From assembly GCA_014240385.1 (NCBI GenBank), contig JAAZXA010000027.1:1-39267 (forward strand): 39,267 bases of DNA, read 5' to 3'. Positions 27,245-39,267 of this stretch are shown piece after piece. The stretch is from Methanobacteriota archaeon (GTDB taxonomy: Archaea > Thermoplasmatota > Poseidoniia > Poseidoniales > Poseidoniaceae). The translations under genes and the position numbers were made by a program. Within the stretch, counting starts at the first letter, position 1, and each line of letters starts with the position of its first letter. Under the pieces are notes generated by a model. The model was not told where the DNA came from and ran no database searches. It saw nothing but the letters and a program-made list of their open reading frames with translations.

Positions 27245-28006
27245 TCAGATTGAGCGCATTCTTCCACCATCAACTGCTAGGCTAACGCCGCGGATTCCAC
27301 CACTATGTGGAAGGCATAGGAACACGACGGCGTTTGCAGTTTCTTCAGGGTTAATCAAGCGACCAATCGGCACTTGAGATAACCAAGTTGAGTGGATATC
27401 TTCCTTGCTGCGGCCCGTTTTACTTTCAATAGAAGCAGCAAGAGATTCTAACCTTCCTGTATTTGTGAAGCCGGGTAGGATATTGTTAATCGTTATGCAT
27501 TCAGGCAATTCGCGAGAAAGCGACTTGGACCATGAAGCCATGGCACCACGAAGAGTATTAGAAAGTCCAATATTGGGAATTGGTTCTCGAACTGAAGTTG
27601 AAATAATGTTGACGATTCTACCCATGCCAGATTCAACCATGCCTGGTACAAGCAACTTGGTTATCGTATGAGCAGCATGTAGGTGACGCTTGAATGGCGC
27701 TTCAAATTCCTCAATTTCATTTTCAAGCAATCGGCCCCCTGGAGGTCCTGCTGAATTATTGACTAGGACTTGAATTGGCTCATCTTCAATAAGCGCGGAA
27801 ATTGCGACTCTTACTTCCGCAGTGTTTTCCAAATCAAGACTAAGAATTGAATGCCCCGGACCTGGTAATGAAGCGCATAAGCCAATAAGTTCTTCTTCAT
27901 CACGACTACACAAAATAACTCTGCAACCTGCTTCTGCGAAAGCCTTGGCCGTTGCTCGTCCAATTCCTTTTGAAGCTCCACAAACTAAGGCTCTCATTCC
28001 TTCCAT
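27245..28006 (-). CDS. SDR-family oxidoreductase-like protein lacking the usual Tyr-Lys pair
   Basis: The Rossmann fold is clear: ALVCGASKGIGRATAKAFAE (glycine motif near residues 5-24), LCSRDEEE for the cofactor ribose, and LVNNSAGPPGG in the NNAG position. The catalytic Ser is seen in NIISTSVREP. The Y-x-x-x-K motif that should follow reads LSNTLRGAMASWSK, so both Tyr and Lys are replaced. A known SDR subgroup shares this pattern, and its reactions are poorly defined. I take the ATG at 28006 (MEGMRALV), which matches family N-termini; the frame is open to 28051. The C-terminus (GVSLAVDGGRMRSI) is complete. It lies 83 bp after the formyltransferase gene in the same direction. Confidence 0.88.
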   Translation of the reverse strand: MEGMRALVCGASKGIGRATAKAFAEAGCRVILCSRDEEELIGLCASLPGPGHSILSLDLENTAEVRVAISALIEDEPIQVLVNNSAGPPGGRLLENEIEEFEAPFKRHLHAAHTITKLLVPGMVESGMGRIVNIISTSVREPIPNIGLSNTLRGAMASWSKSLSRELPECITINNILPGFTNTGRLESLAASIESKTGRSKEDIHSTWLSQVPIGRLINPEETANAVVFLCLPHSGGIRGVSLAVDGGRMRSI

Positions 28007-28089
28007 CGCGGTGCGTGTAAATGGCGATTTACTATCTAACATATTCATCATTCTCCAATTGTAATTTCAATTCTTCCAATTTAATTTAT

Positions 28090-28812
28090 TCAGTCACAAT
28101 AATGTGCATATGTTTGCTCAGCCAACTTCTGATAAACTACTTCCAAAACTTCATCAGGAGCATTTCGGAAAGTCGGATGTTCAGCCTCTCCTTGTGGTCT
28201 ACGCATCGCATTCCATTCTCCTGCGTCATATGCCATTAGGGCTTCCTTCATCAATACACCTGCTAAAACCAAAGTCTCGTAGCACAGGTCTTCGTAGGTC
28301 ATTCCTCGCTTAACAGGAACTTCACGACGCATCAGTAATTCTCCGGTATCAATTCCATTGTCGCAGAAATGAGTCGATGAGCCGATTGGTATGTCGTGAA
28401 AAACAGACCAAGCAGGGCTGGCACTACCTCGGCAATCAGGCAACAAACCAGGATGGGAGTTGATGACACCATCTTTGGGGTGGTCAAGAATTTCTCCGCG
28501 AATAATTCGAGTCCCACCAAATACGATAAGGTCCAACTCTAGTTCACGCAGGTGAGGCATAACCTGCTCAGAATTATGAATCGAAACTTCCACATGTGGA
28601 ATATCTAGCCCTGACATTTGTTCAACAATAGTATCGGCAATGGGATTGCCTTCAATACGAGCGAGAAACTTTTCTCGCTCTTCATCGGCGATTGCTGAGT
28701 CCTCGGTAATGATGATAGTTGGAATAAATCCCTCGGACATTATTTGCTTCAACATCTCCCTCCCATATGGGTGTTCTTTGAGGAGTAAATAGGCGAATGC
28801 TAGTTTGGCCAT
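28090..28812 (-). CDS. Formyltransferase-family protein
   Basis: The 240-residue protein has the formyl-transferase catalytic core: GVINSHPGLLPDCRGSASP with Asn and His in the N-x-H-P-x-LLP motif, and FCDNGIDTGELL with the catalytic Asp. Members move a formyl group from 10-formyltetrahydrofolate to GAR, Met-tRNA or an amino sugar. The N-terminal half (PTIIITEDSAIADEE, then LDLIVFGGTRII) fits the nucleotide-like domain. It is too short for Met-tRNA formyltransferase, which has a further C-terminal domain, and archaea do not formylate initiator tRNA. A sugar-nucleotide N-formyltransferase is therefore plausible given the GtrA-like and glycan-rich neighbours. This assignment is inference. Confidence 0.82.
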   Translation of the reverse strand: MAKLAFAYLLLKEHPYGREMLKQIMSEGFIPTIIITEDSAIADEEREKFLARIEGNPIADTIVEQMSGLDIPHVEVSIHNSEQVMPHLRELELDLIVFGGTRIIRGEILDHPKDGVINSHPGLLPDCRGSASPAWSVFHDIPIGSSTHFCDNGIDTGELLMRREVPVKRGMTYEDLCYETLVLAGVLMKEALMAYDAGEWNAMRRPQGEAEHPTFRNAPDEVLEVVYQKLAEQTYAHYCD

Positions 28813-31756: not shown

Positions 31757-32974
31757 ATGGAGTACGATATTTTCTTCTCGATTTCTCAAACTCCCGATGC
31801 TGAAGGCCATATCCCTTCTGAACAACGGATGTTGAAAAATTACTTTGAACAGGTAAAACTAGCCGACGATTTAGGCTTCGGCGTTGCATGGCTTGCGCAA
31901 GCGCACCTATCCACTGAAACTCAAAAATTGAACAAGAAACCTGTCGTACCACATTGGCAAGGAGAAGTTGGCCTCTGCACTGATTTCCCCCAGTTGGCAC
32001 TGGAAACTTTTCATCGCACCAAGCGGATTGATATTGGCTCAGCAGTATTGTCATTATTAGCCAGTGGTGGGCCGATTGCTCAAGCTGAGAGAATTGCCAA
32101 CACTGTACAATTGATGGGGATGTCCTCTTCGCAAAGAAAGTTGCACGTTGGTTTCAGCGCTGGCCGCTTTGAGTTCATGGCTCGCCCATATGGGGTAATT
32201 CCCCGAAATGAAGTTGAAGAAAAGTCATGGCCTGCTTTGCGTGGTCAAATCTTCATGGAGGCATCTGAAATCTTCCTGCGTTTATTGCGGGGCGACCGGA
32301 TTAGTTCTGAGGATATTCGCGCAACAACTCTGACAAGGGCAAATTTCCGTTCTGATGAAGATTGGCAGGCTGTACATGATGCTGCTGGTGGAGGGGATTC
32401 AGTTGAGATTGAGAGCCGATATGTGTTTGAGGATATTAGTATCGTACCACGAGATTGGCCGCGTTCTCAACTGGAGTTAGTCGCTGGAACTCATGACCCT
32501 AATGCTCAGGAATTCGTTAACTCGATTCTCCCTGTCAAGGTGTTCAACTTGTCAATAACTCAACCTGAGGTGATTGAAGCAACCCATGCCAGAATGGCTG
32601 CCTGCTACCACCAAGATGGCGGGGGATGGAGTCGGAGAGATATGCCAAGAACTTCCTTTGTCTTCCTTAATGCCGAAGATGGTTTGACTGCAGATGAACA
32701 AAGTGCCGCTGCTAAACTTGAGGCAGAGGCTTCACTTGGTTCATATTGGGCTGCCTTAGAAGGCACACTGGATCCTGCAAAGGTTGCTAAGGCGGCTGAT
32801 AATGCTTTGATTGGTAATCCAGCAGAAATAGCCACCCAAATGCTCGAGCGTTTCCATCCAGAAGAACGGATAATGACCTGGTTTGATTTCTTCAATCATG
32901 ATTCGGAGCGTGTCTGTCGCAACATGCGTGCTTTTATCGAACAAGTGGTGCCGTTGGTGGAGGCGGCACTTTGA
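31757..32974 (+). CDS. LLM-class flavin-dependent oxidoreductase
   Basis: The 405-residue protein has the luciferase-like TIM barrel: DIFFSISQTP at the N-terminus, KLADDLGFGVAWLAQAHL at helix 1, RTKRIDIGSAVLSLLASGGPIAQAERIA as the strand-helix after it, and HVGFSAGRFEFMA at the flavin/phosphate region. Such enzymes use FMNH2 or F420 to oxidise a substrate with oxygen or to move hydride. A 90-residue insert and a C-terminal helical region are present. GAGGGGGAG 8 nt ahead of the ATG is a fair Shine-Dalgarno sequence. Its TGA overlaps the next gene's TTG start (TTGA), so it is the first gene of a tightly coupled operon. Its role next to a meta-cleavage dehydrogenase may be ring or amine oxidation, which is inference. 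Confidence 0.88.
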   Translation: MEYDIFFSISQTPDAEGHIPSEQRMLKNYFEQVKLADDLGFGVAWLAQAHLSTETQKLNKKPVVPHWQGEVGLCTDFPQLALETFHRTKRIDIGSAVLSLLASGGPIAQAERIANTVQLMGMSSSQRKLHVGFSAGRFEFMARPYGVIPRNEVEEKSWPALRGQIFMEASEIFLRLLRGDRISSEDIRATTLTRANFRSDEDWQAVHDAAGGGDSVEIESRYVFEDISIVPRDWPRSQLELVAGTHDPNAQEFVNSILPVKVFNLSITQPEVIEATHARMAACYHQDGGGWSRRDMPRTSFVFLNAEDGLTADEQSAAAKLEAEASLGSYWAALEGTLDPAKVAKAADNALIGNPAEIATQMLERFHPEERIMTWFDFFNHDSERVCRNMRAFIEQVVPLVEAAL

Positions 32975-34107
32975 CCTTACAACATGATGAGCATTCTGCT
33001 GTATCTCCTGGTCGTCCTGGGTCAGGAGTATTTCCGGATTCACCACTTGGCGAGAATGTAGAGGGAATCCCGACTGGTCGTGATGTAGAATGGGAGCCGC
33101 TGGTTGATTATCGCCGCAATGGAGTTTCTGAAACTACCATTCATGGTGCTGTTGCTTGGGCTCATGGGGATGAGGTCATCCATTCCTTTGGCGGCAATGT
33201 TCTATGCTATGGTCGTTCGATGATGAAGCCATTCATGTTGAAGACTTTTTGCGAAGTCTTGGATGATGAAACTGATTGGTCGCAAAAAGCCATTGCTGTG
33301 GCTAGCCATAATGGTGATACCGAACATGTTGCTGCTGCGCAGAGTTTGTTATCCGAATCCGAATGGGGATTGATGCTAACACCTCTTGATGTACCGCTGA
33401 TTCAGTTTGGCCGCCAAGTTAGAAGGCCTCGACGTTGGTATCATACCTGTAGTGGTGAACATGCTGCAATACTGAAAGGCTGCCGTTTGAAAGGTTGGAA
33501 GCGGGCTGGCTACACCTTGCCAAGCCACGAAGTCTTCCTCTCGTTCATGAAGACTATTCGCGGTTTTCTTGGCCAAGACTGGCAACCAAAACGCATCGCC
33601 AAAGATGGTTGTGGTCTGCCAACAATTTCCAATACCGTCAATGAATTAGCCCGCTTATGTGCTGGACTTGTGCGACAGAAGGATGATGATTGGATTTGGT
33701 CTGCTATGGTAGAACATCCTGATTTGATAGGCGGTTTCAATCGCCTCGACTCAACCATAATCAAAGCCGGCGAAGGAAAAGTCATTGCAAAAGAAGGGGC
33801 AGACGGCCTGCTGGGTTTGTCAATAGAACATCCAGACTACCCAAAGGGATTAGGCATCGTAGTAAAAATTGCTCACGGCTGGAACTCGCAAGCAACTTGG
33901 TATGTAGCAAGGGCAATATTAGGAGTATTAGGTATTGAATTACGCAATCCGTATCCACTACACCGGCAAAAGGCATTCATCGTACCAGGTGTTGTTCCAC
34001 CGCATTTACTCGAAGTTTTGAAGACAATTCCAACTTGGGATGAATGGGACCCTGATCAAGACCGCTGGCATTATGAGATTCCGACTCGAGGTGAAGGCTT
34101 TGATTGA
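32971..34107 (+). CDS. Asparaginase-II-family protein (PF06089 type)
   Basis: The 378-residue protein matches the asparaginase II family, distinct from both classical and Ntn asparaginases. Signatures are LVDYRRNGVSETTIHGAVAW at 45-63, GRSMMKPF at 81-88, ASHNGDTEHV at 111-120, HTCSGEHAAILKGC at 158-171 and DGCGLPT near 217. Family members resemble serine beta-lactamase-like or amidase-type hydrolases and act on asparagine or small amides. Initiation is at TTG 32971, overlapping the LLM stop by 4 bp. An in-frame ATG follows only much later. The gene overlaps the next aldehyde dehydrogenase gene. In this setting it might release ammonia from an amino or amide intermediate, but nothing in the sequence fixes the substrate. 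Confidence 0.85.
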   Translation: MTLQHDEHSAVSPGRPGSGVFPDSPLGENVEGIPTGRDVEWEPLVDYRRNGVSETTIHGAVAWAHGDEVIHSFGGNVLCYGRSMMKPFMLKTFCEVLDDETDWSQKAIAVASHNGDTEHVAAAQSLLSESEWGLMLTPLDVPLIQFGRQVRRPRRWYHTCSGEHAAILKGCRLKGWKRAGYTLPSHEVFLSFMKTIRGFLGQDWQPKRIAKDGCGLPTISNTVNELARLCAGLVRQKDDDWIWSAMVEHPDLIGGFNRLDSTIIKAGEGKVIAKEGADGLLGLSIEHPDYPKGLGIVVKIAHGWNSQATWYVARAILGVLGIELRNPYPLHRQKAFIVPGVVPPHLLEVLKTIPTWDEWDPDQDRWHYEIPTRGEGFD

Positions 34108-35521
34108 AGTCCTGAACCTAATAAATGGACAATTTTGCACTACCGAAGAGTGTTTGGAGAATCTAAATCCTGCCACTTCAAAGCAAACTTCAGTCATTCC
34201 ACGTTCAACTGCAAGTGACGTTGATGCAGCAGTTATCGCAGCAAAGCGTGCCTTTCCTGCTTGGGCTATTCTATCATATGAAGAACGGGCAGATTGGTTA
34301 GATAGAATCGCCGATGCTCTTGAGGCTAAATCAGAGGAAATTGCGGCTCTTGAATCAATGGATACTGGCAAGCCGATTTCACTGGCAAGGGCTGTTGATG
34401 CTACCCGTAGTATCGTAAATTTTCGGTTTTTTGCTGAACAAGTGCGCGAGTTAGAGGTGGAACGATTTGAGATGGAGGATGCCAGCAATCATGTTGTCAT
34501 GCAACCAGTTGGAGTAGCAGGTTTGATTACACCTTGGAATCTACCTCTGTATTTGTTATCTTGGAAAATTGCTCCGGCTATTGCAATGGGTAATACAGTA
34601 GTTGCGAAACCCAGTGAATTGACTCCCTTAACTGCTGACTTGTTGGCGCGGACATTGGTGGAAATAGGTTTACCCGCGGGAGTTGTTAACATCGTTCATG
34701 GCTATGGCCATGAAGCAGGACAAGCCCTAACAGAACATCCTGATACTCGCATTATCTCCTTTACTGGAGGAACTGCAACTGGGAAAATTGTAGCCTCGAC
34801 TGCAGCCCCGATGTTCAAGAAATTGAGCCTTGAATTGGGTGGTAAGAATTCCACAATCGTCTTTGCTGACGCAGATATGAAAAAAACCGTTGCAGGAGTT
34901 GCTCGTGCTGGCCTACTAAATCAAGGCCAAGTCTGCCTTTGCGGTTCTAGAATATTGGTAGAATCTTCAATTTATGATCAGTTTATGGCAGACTTGTGTA
35001 AGCATATCGAAGCCATGAAACTCGGTGACCCAAGTGATGAAAGCACCGAACTTGGCTCTTTGGTCTCGAAGGAACACCGTTCCAAGGTAGAATCCTTCAT
35101 CCAAATCGCCAAGGACGATGGTGGGGTAATCTGCACAGGTGGCAAGCGACCTGATATTGAGGAGGGGGCATTCTTGGAACCTACGGTGATTTCTGGTTTA
35201 GACATCAACTCAACTTGTTCAACTGAGGAAATATTCGGTCCGGTCATAGTGGCACATCCTTTTGATACTGAAGAACAAGCGGTTACTATCGCTAATGGAG
35301 TCGAATATGGCCTTGCCGCATCGGTATGGACAACAGATCTTGAGAAAGGGCGACGAGTTAGTGAAGCCCTCGATACAGGCATGGTCTGGGTCAATACTTG
35401 GCTTCACCGAGATTTGAGAACTCCATTCGGTGGCACCAAAGCATCAGGGGTAGGGCGTGAAGGCGGCAGGTGGTCGCTGTCATTTTATTCAGAGGCTCAA
35501 AACATCTGCATCAAGCAGTAA
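34091..35521 (+). CDS. Aldehyde dehydrogenase of the 2-aminomuconate/2-hydroxymuconate semialdehyde type
   Basis: NAD-dependent aldehyde dehydrogenase of 476 residues from the GTG at 34091. The frame is open to 34040, but the family begins near LNLINGQF, so the GTG or the TTG at 34100 is right; both overlap the asparaginase gene's end. Motifs are PWNLPL (oxyanion Asn150), AKPSE (Lys173), SFTGGTATG, LELGGKN (Glu248) and GQVCLCGSR (Cys282). The C-terminus reads NTWLHRDLRTPFGGTKASG, and the RDLRTPFGG string is the mark of the ALDH8A1/AmnC/XylG group, which oxidises 2-aminomuconate or 2-hydroxymuconate 6-semialdehyde. This links it to the extradiol dioxygenase genes further along the window. Confidence 0.92.
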   Translation: MKALIEVLNLINGQFCTTEECLENLNPATSKQTSVIPRSTASDVDAAVIAAKRAFPAWAILSYEERADWLDRIADALEAKSEEIAALESMDTGKPISLARAVDATRSIVNFRFFAEQVRELEVERFEMEDASNHVVMQPVGVAGLITPWNLPLYLLSWKIAPAIAMGNTVVAKPSELTPLTADLLARTLVEIGLPAGVVNIVHGYGHEAGQALTEHPDTRIISFTGGTATGKIVASTAAPMFKKLSLELGGKNSTIVFADADMKKTVAGVARAGLLNQGQVCLCGSRILVESSIYDQFMADLCKHIEAMKLGDPSDESTELGSLVSKEHRSKVESFIQIAKDDGGVICTGGKRPDIEEGAFLEPTVISGLDINSTCSTEEIFGPVIVAHPFDTEEQAVTIANGVEYGLAASVWTTDLEKGRRVSEALDTGMVWVNTWLHRDLRTPFGGTKASGVGREGGRWSLSFYSEAQNICIKQ

Positions 35522-35566
35522 ATATGCTGGCAAGACTCTTCAAGGAGTAGCCTTGCCCTTTGCTTG

Positions 35567-37015
35567 ATGGACCTCAATCCATATTGGGTAATGATGGGAC
35601 TTGTTGTAGTCCTCACTCCTCTAACTTGTTGGATATTCACCCTCAACCAAAAGCAACGTCGAACCCCTCTCAGAGATATTGCTCAAATCATACACGAAAA
35701 GAGATACTACCTACACGTCATGGGTTATCTCATTATCATCAAGTGGAAGGCCTTGACTGATAATTTGAATGAACCGATGAAACGCCTGACTGGCCATTGG
35801 ACGGACTGGGTGTATGCTATCGAAGGAGATGCAACCCTCTGGGTACAGGAGTTTTTCAGGAATTCATACCTGACAGATTTCCTGAACTTTCACTATCTTT
35901 TCATCTACTTATTCTTGATTTACATAACCACTGTCTACTATGCCTATGTTGGCGAGCGTGATATGACCGATAAAGTAGCACTGAACTATCTCCTCATCTA
36001 TGCGATTGCAGTTCCATATTACTTGTTCTTTAATGTTGAAGTGACAAGTTCTTGGATTCCAGGGATGGATGCCATTCTCTATCACGATGGCTGGTATGCA
36101 GAATTCTATGCCACTCATGACCCCCTCGATAATGCTGTTCCATCTCTGCACATTGCAATCCCTTTTGGAATAATTTTGCTGAATATCCTCCATGTTAGAG
36201 AAAAAGGCATGAAGATGAAAGAATGGGCCCATTACCGCTACCATGTTTTCATCGTAATAAATACAATTTTGTTTGCTTTTACAATCTTATATCTTGGAAT
36301 ACACTGGATTATTGATATCCCATTGGGCATGGTGATTGGTGCCCTTGGTGCCTTCTTCATTCATAACTTGCAGCCGCGTTTGAGAAATGACCACGGCAAG
36401 ACGTTTGAGGGTGTGACAAAAGAGAAAGTAATCCGGCACGCCATAGTTGAGGGATTCATTGGACTAATGCTTCTTCTCAGTATCTTTGCTGCTGTTTCCT
36501 ATCAAGAAGCAAATATGGATGAGCGTGTTTCATTCAGACTTGGCGAAGGCGACACGACTTACGAAATAATTCAACGACTGAAGTATGGTGATACTGTAGA
36601 AGTGGAAGTCACTAATTTGGCAGAGGATGCCGACCTCTATCTTGTTATAATTCAATTACAAGCCGCCCTTCCTTCAATGGCAGAAGGCTCGATAAATTGG
36701 ACTAATTTAAGCGATGAAGGTGGCCAAGAAATTAGAGTATCTCCTGGCCAAACTCTCATTATCACTCTAGGTCAATCTGATGTTTGGCATCTATTATTGA
36801 TGCATAACCCCGTTGATTCGGGTGCCGAAATCATGGATGTCAGAGTCCTCAATGACTATGGAAAGGACTCGATGCTCAATGCCTATCTACTCTCAATTCC
36901 TTCTCTTTGGATAACTGGCTTCGTCATCCATCGCCTAGTGCGGCTGAAGATGGCCAATAAGTCTCTAATCAATTCATTACCGTCTCATAAATGGGAATCT
37001 GATGAACAGGAATAA
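35567..37015 (+). CDS. PAP2-superfamily membrane protein with extracellular beta domain
   Basis: The 482-residue protein has several membrane segments before and around the lipid-phosphatase motifs: NAVPSLHIAIP with PSLH at 192-195 and YLGIHWIIDIPLGM with HWIID at 246-250. These are the C2 and C3 motifs of the PAP2 subgroup that includes inositol-phosphoceramide synthase-like enzymes, so dephosphorylation or head-group exchange on a lipid is likely. After a further helix near 300-317 there is a roughly 130-residue soluble beta-rich region (VSFRLGEGDTTYEI to MDVRVLND), then a last helix near 445-465. The ATG at 35567 is preferred to the TTG codon before it. It starts 45 bp after the ALDH stop, in the same direction. 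Confidence 0.85.
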   Translation: MDLNPYWVMMGLVVVLTPLTCWIFTLNQKQRRTPLRDIAQIIHEKRYYLHVMGYLIIIKWKALTDNLNEPMKRLTGHWTDWVYAIEGDATLWVQEFFRNSYLTDFLNFHYLFIYLFLIYITTVYYAYVGERDMTDKVALNYLLIYAIAVPYYLFFNVEVTSSWIPGMDAILYHDGWYAEFYATHDPLDNAVPSLHIAIPFGIILLNILHVREKGMKMKEWAHYRYHVFIVINTILFAFTILYLGIHWIIDIPLGMVIGALGAFFIHNLQPRLRNDHGKTFEGVTKEKVIRHAIVEGFIGLMLLLSIFAAVSYQEANMDERVSFRLGEGDTTYEIIQRLKYGDTVEVEVTNLAEDADLYLVIIQLQAALPSMAEGSINWTNLSDEGGQEIRVSPGQTLIITLGQSDVWHLLLMHNPVDSGAEIMDVRVLNDYGKDSMLNAYLLSIPSLWITGFVIHRLVRLKMANKSLINSLPSHKWESDEQE

Positions 37016-37041
37016 AGACATCCTGCAAGGTTGACCCCCTA

Positions 37042-37743
37042 ATGGATTCAACCGGCGACTGTTTGCTGCTGCCGATTTTCCCTCTTGAATGCACATTATT
37101 GCCAGGTGAACCACAAGTCTTGCGAATCTTTGAGCCACGCTACAAACAGATGCTAGATGACTGTCTACTCGACGACCTACCCTTTGGCATTTGTTTGGTC
37201 GACCCATTTCATCCGGTCAATGGCTGGACTGGCCCCCATCTAATTGGTACAACAGCAAGGATTTGCGGCCATGAAGAAGCAGGTAGTAATCACATCATTG
37301 AGATTCAAGGACAACGAAGATTTCGAATCATAGAGATTATCGAACCGGTTGCACCCCCTATGGATGCGATACAACACCGAGTTTTTCCCGACCTTGAATC
37401 TTTGATGGAGATGGTCGGAGGCGACGATGATGCACGCCTTTATATCCGTGCTAAGGTAGAATGGATGATGGAACCTGAAGGGTCATTGGATGATAGTTTC
37501 AAAGCAGAATTAGAAGACATTTGGATGTCTTTTCTTTCAAGTCTTGCTAAGCAAAATAGTATGCCTGAAGAAATGATTGAAGAATGGAAAGATGCGCAAT
37601 TAACTACTGTTTGCGATTGGGATTCCTCTTCAATTTGGCGAATCGCTTCGGTTTTAGTTGCAGATCCAAATGAAAAGCAATCATTGCTTGAATCAGCAAA
37701 CCTACTTGAATTGGTTACTGAATTGATGCACATTATCGATTAA
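37042..37743 (+). CDS. Stand-alone LON substrate-binding-domain protein
   Basis: The N-terminal 120 or so residues match the LON N-domain (PF02190): LLPIFPLECTLLPGEPQVLRI, FEPRYKQMLDDCL, GTTARICGHEEAG and IEIQGQRRFRIIEI, with the usual order of beta strands. A helical C-terminal part follows. No ATPase or protease domain is present, and the LonB in this window lacks this domain, so the protein could recognise substrates for another partner, but that is inference. Such stand-alone proteins are common in bacteria and occur in some archaea. It starts at the first ATG, 26 bp past the PAP2 gene. Its TAA stop shares the bases TTAA with the TAA of the convergent membrane protein gene. Confidence 0.9.
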   Translation: MDSTGDCLLLPIFPLECTLLPGEPQVLRIFEPRYKQMLDDCLLDDLPFGICLVDPFHPVNGWTGPHLIGTTARICGHEEAGSNHIIEIQGQRRFRIIEIIEPVAPPMDAIQHRVFPDLESLMEMVGGDDDARLYIRAKVEWMMEPEGSLDDSFKAELEDIWMSFLSSLAKQNSMPEEMIEEWKDAQLTTVCDWDSSSIWRIASVLVADPNEKQSLLESANLLELVTELMHIID

Positions 37744-38213
37744 GAGCGGATGTCAAGGGCCAAGGCACCTGAAAATGCCCCCACAACTAGCCCAAGTCCC
37801 CACCAAACACCAAGCCTGAATGCCGGCAGGTCGTGTTTACCCCAACTACCTGAAGCCATAAACCAAAACAGCATCAAAATGAAAGCGCCACATCCAGCCA
37901 TACTTGACATCAAAAATGCTAAGATAATCGTCGAAAATCCGCCTGCCATGAATTCAATAATCTCGCTTTTACGGCCTTGTTTAGCCATCCAAGCCGCCAT
38001 CACCACAAGTCCTGGAATAATGACGATGAGGAGTGCAACATGCATATTCCAAAGTGAATTGAGGTAGTCTCTCTCATCCCAAGGGCTTGCTAACTTGCCA
38101 GAATCAACAAGCGACTGGGCAACTAAGCCACATATTCCGCCAGTTATTGCAGGGATGATGACATGTACAAATGCTGCCTTTGAATGAACGACATTTTGCT
38201 CATGCGCATCCAT
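37740..38213 (-). CDS. Small four-helix membrane protein, unknown
   Basis: From the ATG at 38213 the protein has 157 residues; the frame stays open to 38321 but that would run into the dioxygenase gene. Four hydrophobic segments (about 15-33, 55-76, 84-112, 133-152) alternate with short loops, and the C-terminus is outside or inside by parity only. I recognise no family motif. Gly-rich helices (AAFVHVIIPAITGGICGLVA and MAGGFSTIILAFLM) suggest a transporter-like or assembly protein. It is divergent from the dioxygenase gene with 76 bp between and convergent on the LON-domain gene. Confidence 0.7.
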   Translation of the reverse strand: MDAHEQNVVHSKAAFVHVIIPAITGGICGLVAQSLVDSGKLASPWDERDYLNSLWNMHVALLIVIIPGLVVMAAWMAKQGRKSEIIEFMAGGFSTIILAFLMSSMAGCGAFILMLFWFMASGSWGKHDLPAFRLGVWWGLGLVVGAFSGALALDIRS

Positions 38214-38257
38214 GTTCGGGGCGAAGTGGGAATCCTCAAGAAGATGTCGTATTGACA

Positions 38258-38270
38258 AGGTCAAAGACCT
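38258..38270. promoter_or_regulatory. 13-bp inverted repeat in the divergent region before the dioxygenase gene
   Basis: AGGTC-AAA-GACCT is a perfect palindrome with 5-bp arms in the 76-bp gap between the small membrane protein gene and the extradiol dioxygenase gene. It could be an operator for either gene. The arms are short, so chance is a real possibility. Confidence 0.3.
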
Positions 38271-38289
38271 GATGTTGTCTCGGCTATCC

Positions 38290-39186
38290 ATGGGCGGAGG
38301 AAAGATTGTCGCAGGCATCATCGCTCCACACCCCCCTCATCTCATTTATGCAGAAAATCCCCCACAGAATGAGCCGAAGTCAGAAGGAGGTTGGGAACAA
38401 CTTCGTTGGGGATATGAAAGAATGCGGGAAAGCCTTGAGGAAGTTGACTACGATGTTATCGTCATCTTGTCTCCACACTGGCAAACTTATGTTGGCACGC
38501 ATTTTCTTGGAGTTGAGAATTTCAAGAGTTTATCGGTGGACCCAGTTTTTCCAAATCTATTCAGATTCAACTATGATATGCAAGTCGATATTGAATTAGC
38601 CAAGACCATTCATGACCAAGCAGAAGCAGACGGTATGGCTGTGAAAATGATGGAGAATCCCGACTTCCGAGTCGATTACGGGACTATTGTTTCCTGCCAT
38701 TTAACTCGTCCTGATTGGGACAAACCAATAGTTTCAATCTCAAGTAATCGTAGCCGCCATTATTACTCGGTTGAAGTAATGCAAGAAATGATGATGCAAC
38801 TGGGAGAAAGTACTCGCAAAGCAATCGAGGCAAGTGGCAAGAGAGTTTTGCTAATAGCAAGTAACTCACTTTCACACCGCCACTTTACCTCAGAATCAGC
38901 TATCCCAGAGGACATGAGTAAGGAGCATATCACCAGCCATGCAATGCACCTTTGGGATATGCGAATCCTTGATTTGATGAGAGAAGGGAAAACTCAACAA
39001 GTCGTTGATGAAATGCCTGAGTTCATTGAACAAGCGATTTCTGAAAGTGATGGTGGCTCTCTGACTTGGATGTTTTCGGCCTTAGGAATGCCAACATATT
39101 CCCCACTGATGCATGGTTATGGCACCATAATTGGCACGGGCAACGTAATCATGGAATGGCAACATGAAAAGAAGGGAGGGGTTTGA
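38290..39186 (+). CDS. Class III extradiol dioxygenase, 2-aminophenol 1,6-dioxygenase beta-subunit-like (AmnB-like)
   Basis: The protein opens with KIVAGIIAPHPPHLIYAENPP and continues NEPKSEGGWEQLRWGYERMR, close to AmnB of bacterial aminophenol degraders from memory. The Fe(II) ligands His14, His63 (SPHWQT) and Glu252 (AISESDGG) fall at the positions of His13, His62 and Glu251 of AmnB with a constant shift of one. FRVDYGT, SSNRSRHYY and LIASNSLSHRHF are further family segments, the last holding an active-site His. AmnB opens 2-aminophenol between C1 and C6 to give 2-aminomuconate 6-semialdehyde. I take the ATG at 38290 (298 residues); ATGs at 38275 and 38212 would add tails not seen in the family. 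Its TGA overlaps the next ATG by one base. Confidence 0.88.
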   Translation: MGGGKIVAGIIAPHPPHLIYAENPPQNEPKSEGGWEQLRWGYERMRESLEEVDYDVIVILSPHWQTYVGTHFLGVENFKSLSVDPVFPNLFRFNYDMQVDIELAKTIHDQAEADGMAVKMMENPDFRVDYGTIVSCHLTRPDWDKPIVSISSNRSRHYYSVEVMQEMMMQLGESTRKAIEASGKRVLLIASNSLSHRHFTSESAIPEDMSKEHITSHAMHLWDMRILDLMREGKTQQVVDEMPEFIEQAISESDGGSLTWMFSALGMPTYSPLMHGYGTIIGTGNVIMEWQHEKKGGV

Positions 39187-39267
39187 TGTCTGGAATTATC
39201 AAATCCTTAGTTGTGCCAGCCCATCCTCACCCATACTTATGCCCAGATGCCAACCAAGGTTGGGCAA
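39186..39267 (+). CDS. Second LigB-type dioxygenase subunit, partial (AmnA-like alpha subunit?)
   Basis: Only 27 residues lie in the window: MSGIIKSLVVPAHPHPYLC and then PDANQGWA. The layout matches the N-terminus of AmnA-type subunits (LVP-x-P-x-P-x-L-x-P...W), and the start codon shares a base with the stop of the beta-subunit-like gene, the arrangement expected for a two-subunit enzyme. Unlike the alpha subunits I remember, which have lost the iron-site histidines, this one keeps His in AHPHP, so it could be catalytic. The identification is tentative because most of the gene is missing. Confidence 0.55.
   Translation, partial: MSGIIKSLVVPAHPHPYLCPDANQGWA

Follow-up and report, generated by a model that had tools for sequence, protein, structure and literature searches.

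A marine archaeal gene set that probably forms part of tryptophan catabolism through 2-aminophenol

A 39,267-nucleotide stretch of DNA from a Marine Group II archaeon (hereafter the window, meaning the whole stretch that was analysed) carries a gene set which, in our view, is rather likely to be part of a tryptophan catabolic pathway through 2-aminophenol that includes Baeyer-Villiger and aspartyl-ester steps. The frame of this pathway, from tryptophan to 2-aminomuconate, is well supported by gene context, whereas the chemistry of the Baeyer-Villiger and ester step is our inference. Marine Group II, still uncultured, ranks with the most abundant groups of plankton in surface seawater and supplies its commonest archaea. 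If the proposal is true, a pathway for an aromatic amino acid that nearly all of them possess would tell us about their diet and provide a testable substrate.

Ring opening and the fate of its product

The end of the window encodes a class III extradiol dioxygenase pair. LigB1 (38290..39186, + strand; PF02900, 4e-25) resembles the AmnB-type catalytic beta subunit of 2-aminophenol 1,6-dioxygenase. A TGATG stop/start overlap at 39186 joins it to LigB2 (39186..39267, + strand), a putative AmnA-type alpha subunit whose reading is interrupted by the contig end after its first 27 codons. When profiles were compared with solved structures, the best relatives of LigB1 were AmnB proteins (8ihg_A, 1.6e-127; 3vsg_B, 1.5e-124), and the iron ligands and catalytic histidine of AmnB are present as H14, H63, E252 and H196, confirming the constant offset of +1 from AmnB numbering that an earlier note on this DNA had reported. 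LigB1 and CnbCb of Comamonas CNB-1 share 51.2% of their residues. LigB2 had to be judged from its relatives, the best profile match of which is AmnA (3vsg_A, 1.9e-49); in 14 of 14 sequences its second metal histidine is replaced, with STxW instead of SPHW. At the level of sequence, the assignment of LigB1 and LigB2 as a 2-aminophenol 1,6-dioxygenase of the AmnBA type is supported.

That the pair might be a catechol-type extradiol dioxygenase, working on homoprotocatechuate or DOPA with no link to aminophenol, appears most improbable. The top NCBIfam model of LigB1 is admittedly HpaD (3.8e-29), though far under its cut-off, but the E-value of AmnB is better by more than 100 orders of magnitude, and the partner is an AmnA-type alpha subunit which, in relatives, is fused to a RidA domain. 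In the AmnB tree all these proteins stand apart from HpaD (support 100/100), the classical AmnB proteins form a branch of their own (98/100), and there is no grouping with DODA or MEMO-like proteins, AmnB being by far the nearest solved relative. A catechol, HpaD or DODA identity of LigB1 was rejected on this match and this tree. We also rejected the idea of a single-lineage oddity, as the set is carried by 90 of 98 relatives and by bacteria: among 98 genomes of the same order, 90 have a relative of LigB1, as do 29 of the 29 of good quality, and a second LigB adjoins it nearly always, which rules out a chance occurrence.

Absence of a RidA-type deaminase, which had led to the suggestion that a neighbouring hydrolase might replace it, turns out to be an artefact of the contig end. 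In a relative 98% identical, LigB2 is fused with a RidA domain in a protein of 478 residues (L032:13940-15376) combining LigB and Ribonuc_L-PSP domains, and in relatives' sequences the best match of the RidA domain, at the top of 55, is 2-aminomuconate deaminase (6izh, 5.7e-32). Because of this fusion, the deaminase missing from the contig exists and the hydrolase is no replacement for it; judged from relatives, an AmnD-type function for the domain is supported.

The third member of this module is an aldehyde dehydrogenase (34040..35521, + strand), the true start of which is probably downstream of 34040. Its best solved relatives are all 2-aminomuconate 6-semialdehyde dehydrogenases (AMSDH: 4u3w, 4.5e-179; 4i1w; 4npi), in line with the motif RDLRTPFGG, which is indeed present and from which membership of the aminomuconate/hydroxymuconate semialdehyde group had first been proposed. 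Among all NCBIfam models TIGR03216 is the best (2.2e-169), with a score of 564.1 bits that lies under the equivalog cut-off of 693.25, and identity with the CNB-1 dehydrogenase is 44.6%. The arginines of the DAxRSxxNFRFF and RDLR segments are invariant in the aligned dehydrogenases; in AMSDH it is Arg120 and Arg464 that make up the dual-arginine pocket (PMC4286809). An AmnC-type identity is supported for the protein. Homology accordingly lends support to three consecutive steps: AmnBA would open 2-aminophenol to 2-aminomuconate semialdehyde, AmnC would oxidise this to 2-aminomuconate, and the RidA domain would release ammonia to leave 2-oxo-3-hexenedioate. With AmnB, AmnA and AMSDH as nearest solved relatives, the earlier suggestion of a meta-cleavage module of the AmnBA/AmnC type in a marine archaeon, here one of Marine Group II, is upheld.

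Operons that point to tryptophan

Upstream of the dehydrogenase gene, and in tandem with it on the + strand, lie the gene of an LLM (luciferase-like) flavin monooxygenase (31757..32974; PF00296, 3.9e-6) and that of a hydrolase of the class 3 asparaginase family (32971..34107; PF06089, 8.3e-46), which overlap by 4 nt, as had been described. A PAP2 gene, a LON-domain gene and a membrane protein gene (35564-38321) separate this group from the dioxygenase genes and stand outside the set. On the - strand are found an atypical SDR-fold protein (27245..28051), whose gene immediately precedes that of the LLM enzyme in most relatives, and a formyltransferase-domain protein (28090..28812; PF00551, 1.5e-12 in a relative's copy), a candidate N-formylkynurenine deformylase or formyl transferase. 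In 13 aligned sequences the classical SDR tyrosine has become serine (glycine in one) and the lysine arginine.

The expectation that the enzymes would differ from those of bacteria was not supported: in several bacterial phyla and in Marine Group III these genes are grouped into a single operon with the gene of tryptophan 2,3-dioxygenase (TDO), joined in bacteria by that of kynurenine formamidase. The bacterial order, on one strand, is TDO-SDR-LLM-AspII-ALDH-AmnB-AmnA/RidA-arylformamidase (for example L124, 8244-16863, with 4-nt overlaps); of 47 bacterial loci, 16 contain TDO and 15 arylformamidase, where chance would give some 0.3. This link to tryptophan through the operons of other organisms was absent from the earlier note. 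The TDO copies of the operons exceed the PF03301 gathering cut-off (6.6e-43 to 1.2e-60), and TDO scores with the equivalog TIGR03036 are 128-177 bits, under its cut-off of 390.7; for arylformamidase TIGR03035, the sole family match, gives 207.7 and 194.5 bits (best 1.9e-61) against a cut-off of 223.05. The source genome has its TDO (PF03301, 2.6e-60) outside the cluster. This gene is present in 26 of 27 Marine Group II genomes, where it is unlinked to the cluster and no kynurenine genes were recognised in its neighbourhood. In the same 27 genomes canonical kynureninase over cut-off, a strong 3-hydroxyanthranilate dioxygenase (3-HAO) and the ACMSD-type family each occur once, all three in one genome (G064), and among 27 operon-bearing genomes none has kynureninase or 3-HAO over cut-off; we count this lack in favour of the route through 2-aminophenol.

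How the formyl group is handled appears to differ between lineages. Marine archaea lack arylformamidase, whose family PF04199 was found in none of the 27 genomes of Marine Group II. In the operons of Marine Group III a formyltransferase gene sits directly 3' of RidA, in the position of the bacterial arylformamidase. The formyltransferase is found in 30 loci and arylformamidase in 16, never both, and we propose that in marine archaea the formyltransferase-like protein substitutes for kynurenine formamidase.

It might be supposed that the set breaks down environmental 2-aminophenol or other aminoaromatics, the LLM enzyme and the hydrolase being peripheral and tryptophan irrelevant. The AmnBA, AmnC and AmnD assignments would fit, as would the fact that classical Amn/Cnb clusters degrade 2-aminophenol (L183 is one example), but TDO and arylformamidase lie within the same operon in bacteria, as TDO does in Marine Group III, and this origin of the substrate is very unlikely. 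Furthermore, nearly every Marine Group II genome carries the genes, a distribution to be expected of a core amino-acid pathway more than of xenobiotic breakdown.

From kynurenine to 2-aminophenol

If tryptophan is the starting point, TDO would convert it to N-formylkynurenine, and the arylformamidase of bacteria, or the formyltransferase-like protein of marine archaea, would remove the formyl group to give kynurenine, two steps that gene context supports. The LLM flavoenzyme would then introduce an oxygen atom between the aromatic ring of kynurenine and its ketone group, in a Baeyer-Villiger or Dakin-type reaction yielding an ester in which the beta-carboxyl of aspartate carries the 2-aminophenyl group, and the hydrolase would split this ester into L-aspartate and 2-aminophenol. 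The earlier note had placed these two enzymes either before ring cleavage, making the aminophenol, or after it, in deamination: the first role is supported, and the second lost its ground with the RidA domain fused to LigB2.

The LLM gene is present in 94 of 96 relatives. Its product, modelled by AlphaFold (pLDDT 89.6), has a luciferase-like fold confirmed by Foldseek, the matches belonging to the luciferase family and being mostly monooxygenases (RslO1, 1.8e-15), among them the type II Baeyer-Villiger monooxygenase 4uwm (9.6e-11). Since the protein is equally close to luciferase and to other FMN monooxygenases, fold alone cannot show Baeyer-Villiger chemistry, and it is from gene context that we infer a kynurenine Baeyer-Villiger monooxygenase. 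There is a precedent for an LLM enzyme acting in this way on a side-chain ketone, in the conversion of progesterone to testosterone acetate (PMC12239570). No flavin reductase partner was identified, and the LLM genes that Streptomyces clavuligerus has on plasmids (47% identical) lie beside neither an asparaginase nor an AmnBA gene.

The known relatives of the hydrolase act on the beta-acyl group of aspartyl substrates, and those nearest to it among solved structures are the Rhizobium etli asparaginases. The Ser-Lys pairs S83/K86 and S112/K274 are invariant in 18 sequences. The zinc site of class 3 asparaginases (Cys135-Lys138-Cys189) is not matched; C160/E163/C214 would form a variant metal site, Cys-Glu-Cys in most sequences and Ser-Gln-Asp, in a covarying manner, in two of the 18. 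In ReAV of R. etli, Ser48 is the nucleophile and zinc holds the alpha-amino and alpha-carboxyl groups of asparagine (PMC12951835). Among the linked proteins that were compared, conservation is highest in the hydrolase (69-82% identity across archaea and bacteria), and its gene is locked in position to the LLM gene, which suggests a dedicated substrate; we propose, from sequence and context, that it is a beta-aspartyl aryl esterase.

Two other readings of this step were weighed. In one, the LLM enzyme would stand in for kynurenine monooxygenase (KMO) and hydroxylate C3 of kynurenine, the hydrolase would release 3-hydroxyanthranilate and alanine, and AmnBA would cleave the former. This also supplies an ortho-aminophenol and is consistent with TDO and formamidase in the operon, as with the lack of canonical kynureninase and 3-HAO described above. 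It is unlikely nonetheless, because the carboxylated semialdehyde would need the decarboxylase ACMSD before AmnC and AmnD, a family that is present in 1 of 27 Marine Group II genomes and of which no gene was recognised in the operons examined, and because general chemistry makes a PLP-free serine hydrolase less likely to act on an unactivated C-C bond than on an ester. In the other, the LLM enzyme would oxidise the ring carbon itself (ipso-hydroxylation), the C-C bond breaking without a free ester and the hydrolase acting on some other aspartyl or asparaginyl compound. Net reaction and gene set would be identical and the known activity of the family is L-asparagine hydrolysis (PMC8602277), yet the conservation of the hydrolase and its attachment to the LLM gene make this distinctly unlikely.

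Returning to the Baeyer-Villiger route, no description of tryptophan catabolism through an aspartyl ester was found in the open-access PMC literature searched. We may suggest, tentatively and a little short of an even chance, that an undescribed pathway from kynurenine to aspartate and 2-aminophenol is common to Marine Groups II and III and several bacterial phyla, the archaeal formyl group possibly passing through the formyltransferase to a folate-type carrier instead of being lost as formate. This would provide a replacement for the kynureninase step, and a physiological role for an uncharacterised luciferase-like branch and for asparaginase-family hydrolases. As for what follows, the DmpG aldolase of the canonical lower meta pathway is not over cut-off in Marine Group II, each genome of which has one FAA-hydrolase, nearest a general FAH family.

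Comparison with known systems

In the 2-aminophenol meta-cleavage pathway (AmnBA/AmnC/AmnD; CnbCaCb of Comamonas testosteroni CNB-1), as here, proteins of the AmnB, AmnA, AMSDH and RidA types are encoded in one neighbourhood. The present set adds the LLM, class 3 asparaginase and SDR genes, and TDO in bacteria and Marine Group III; AmnA and RidA form a single protein in one family of Marine Group II and in many bacteria, and the operons held no recognised gene for a decarboxylase, a hydratase or an aldolase. If our proposal is true, the 2-aminophenol pathway of pollutant degraders would look related to an old amino-acid pathway. With type II Baeyer-Villiger enzymes (3,6-diketocamphane monooxygenase, the progesterone LLM of Caenibius tardaugens) the LLM protein shares the luciferase TIM-barrel fold and, as proposed, conversion of ketone to ester, without close sequence kinship and with an aryl amino-acid ketone as putative substrate. 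Compared with ReAIV and ReAV, the hydrolase family keeps Ser48, Lys51, Ser80 and Lys263 and both cysteine ligands of the metal (but for serine and aspartate in L151 and L140), and has glutamate for Lys138; it is strictly linked to an oxygenase, and we propose that it acts on an aryl ester in place of asparagine. Finally, with the kynurenine/3-hydroxyanthranilate pathway (TDO, formamidase, KMO, kynureninase, NbaC, NbaD, NbaE, NbaF) the set has in common its beginning, TDO and formamidase, and its end, AMSDH and a RidA-type deaminase; it has no canonical kynureninase and no 3-HAO of the cupin type, and the middle is replaced by the LLM enzyme, the asparaginase-like hydrolase and AmnBA.

Probable enzymes for 2-aminophenol-type cleavage

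The window is the entire contig C8 of an archaeal MAG of 1.5 Mb, and its forward strand carries genes for an LLM protein, of the luciferase-like flavin monooxygenases (31757-32974), an asparaginase-II-family protein, AspII (32971-34107, overlapping the LLM gene by 4 nt), an aldehyde dehydrogenase, ALDH (34040-35521), and, beyond three unrelated genes, LigB1 (38290-39186), joined by a TGATG stop/start overlap to the first 27 codons of LigB2, where the contig ends. When profiles built from Marine Group II proteins were searched against solved structures, LigB1 was matched best by AmnB (8ihg_A, 1.6e-127, against 3e-15 for homoprotocatechuate dioxygenase as the next family), LigB2 by AmnA (1.9e-49), RidA by 2-aminomuconate deaminase (5.7e-32) and ALDH by 2-aminomuconate 6-semialdehyde dehydrogenase (4.5e-179). 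The iron ligands and catalytic His of AmnB are all kept in LigB1; the second His is gone from LigB2, as expected for an AmnA-type partner. Cleavage of the 2-aminophenol type, which an earlier note had proposed, is supported by these matches and by the conserved ligands. A tree splits the AmnB proteins of these loci from HpaD (100/100) and gathers classical pollutant-pathway AmnB in one branch (98/100), the deeper branches having no settled order. On Pseudomonas veronii and Ensifer plasmids (L184, L185), AmnB and AmnA are labelled 'tRNA U-34 5-methylaminomethyl-2-thiouridine biosynthesis protein', likely a misannotation.

The same note saw the hydrolase as a possible substitute for a missing deaminase, a view that did not hold: in a same-genus relative (L032), whose LigB1 is 98% identical to that of the window, LigB2 is a protein of 478 aa in which the LigB domain is followed by a RidA domain (PF01042, 1.6e-23). 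RidA is usually a separate ORF in a second Marine Group II family, its start coinciding with the LigB2 stop or lying slightly ahead of it. Relatives of LigB1 are present in 90 of 98 genomes of the order (29 of the 29 good ones); 94 of 96 relatives carry the LLM gene. In many Marine Group II genomes AmnA-RidA is closely followed by an APC-family amino-acid permease with a C-terminal EF-hand pair (L035:12167-13831 and equivalents in relatives), which could be a tryptophan importer; PanB, ketopantoate hydroxymethyltransferase (L035:8559-9404 and equivalents), another frequent neighbour there, is probably unrelated to the cluster.

A probable link to tryptophan

Scanning the genomes of 84,980 species with an LLM alignment brought out 80 loci in many phyla, and with them a tryptophan context that the earlier note had not seen. 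TDO (tryptophan 2,3-dioxygenase), SDR, LLM, AspII, ALDH, AmnB, AmnA(-RidA) and arylformamidase are clustered in bacteria (Acidobacteria, Planctomycetota, Myxococcota/Deltaproteobacteria, Krumholzibacteriota and others), some loci lacking part of the set; one locus (L124) has all eight genes on one strand within 8.6 kb, with 4-nt overlaps at three junctions. Of 47 bacterial loci, 16 have TDO and 15 have arylformamidase, where about 0.3 would be expected if one such gene were placed at random in a 3-Mb genome, the loci being related and p-values indicative only. Family searches back TDO (PF03301, up to 1.2e-60); arylformamidase matches TIGR03035 at 207.7 bits, under the cut-off of 223. TDO lies inside the operon in Marine Group III and is present in 26 of 27 Marine Group II genomes. 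There (L075:9574-10647) it stands apart from the LLM/AmnBA cluster, adjoining two conserved genes which, judged by eye only, are for heme O / heme A synthesis.

An SDR-fold gene, near the cluster in the window (27245-28051, reverse strand), is kept beside the LLM gene across phyla. In its product the classical catalytic residues are replaced, Tyr by Ser (by Gly in one) and Lys by Arg. Actinobacterial LLM relatives (L101, L103, L104, L145; 45-48% identical), with no asparaginase or AmnBA genes nearby, likely have a different role.

Only one of 27 Marine Group II genomes has canonical kynureninase over cut-off, and likewise one has a strong 3-HAO match and one the ACMSD-type family; none of 27 operon-bearing genomes has kynureninase or 3-HAO over cut-off. 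MAG incompleteness, which could hide a gene in a single genome, does not explain absence from nearly all. The sole Marine Group II exception, G064, carries all three (G064:C29:6106-7323 and G064:C44:106547-108111; L095, L099, L192), the ACMSD-family gene beside 3-HAO, on top of the LLM set, through recent gain or contamination. No DmpG of the lower meta pathway exceeded the cut-off in Marine Group II, and no flavin reductase was found.

Cyclase-type formamidase was found in 0 of 27 Marine Group II genomes. In Marine Group III a formyltransferase-like gene follows RidA, the position of formamidase elsewhere, and the two (30 and 16 loci) never share a locus. It is possible that the formyltransferase-domain protein encoded near the window's cluster (28090-28812, reverse strand) salvages the formyl group of N-formylkynurenine.

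A putative linking module

Kynurenine is an ortho-amino aryl ketone, and its Baeyer-Villiger oxidation with aryl migration would yield the 2-aminophenyl ester of the aspartate beta-carboxyl. AspII would hydrolyse this ester, a beta-aspartyl acyl group being the sort of substrate taken by asparaginase-type serine hydrolases. Such a sequence of steps would account for an otherwise odd pairing: LLM and AspII genes are adjacent in most loci, their ends often overlapping. The LLM structure model (pLDDT 89.6) matches luciferase-family FMN monooxygenases, type II Baeyer-Villiger monooxygenases being among them, not singled out, and oxidation of this kind at a side-chain ketone is known for LLM enzymes (PMC12239570). 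In the 18 sequences compared, AspII retains both Ser-Lys tandems known from class 3 asparaginases, and its metal-site residues covary, from Cys-Glu-Cys to Ser-Gln-Asp; in ReAV, Ser48 acts as the nucleophile on the carbonyl of the side chain, and the alpha-amino and alpha-carboxyl groups are anchored by the metal (PMC8602277, PMC12951835). The analysis shows which genes these are, how they are linked and which ones are absent; the oxidation, the ester with its hydrolysis, and the part given to the formyltransferase are inferred. We file the system as a hybrid, in which a new linking module joins the kynurenine pathway to that of 2-aminophenol.
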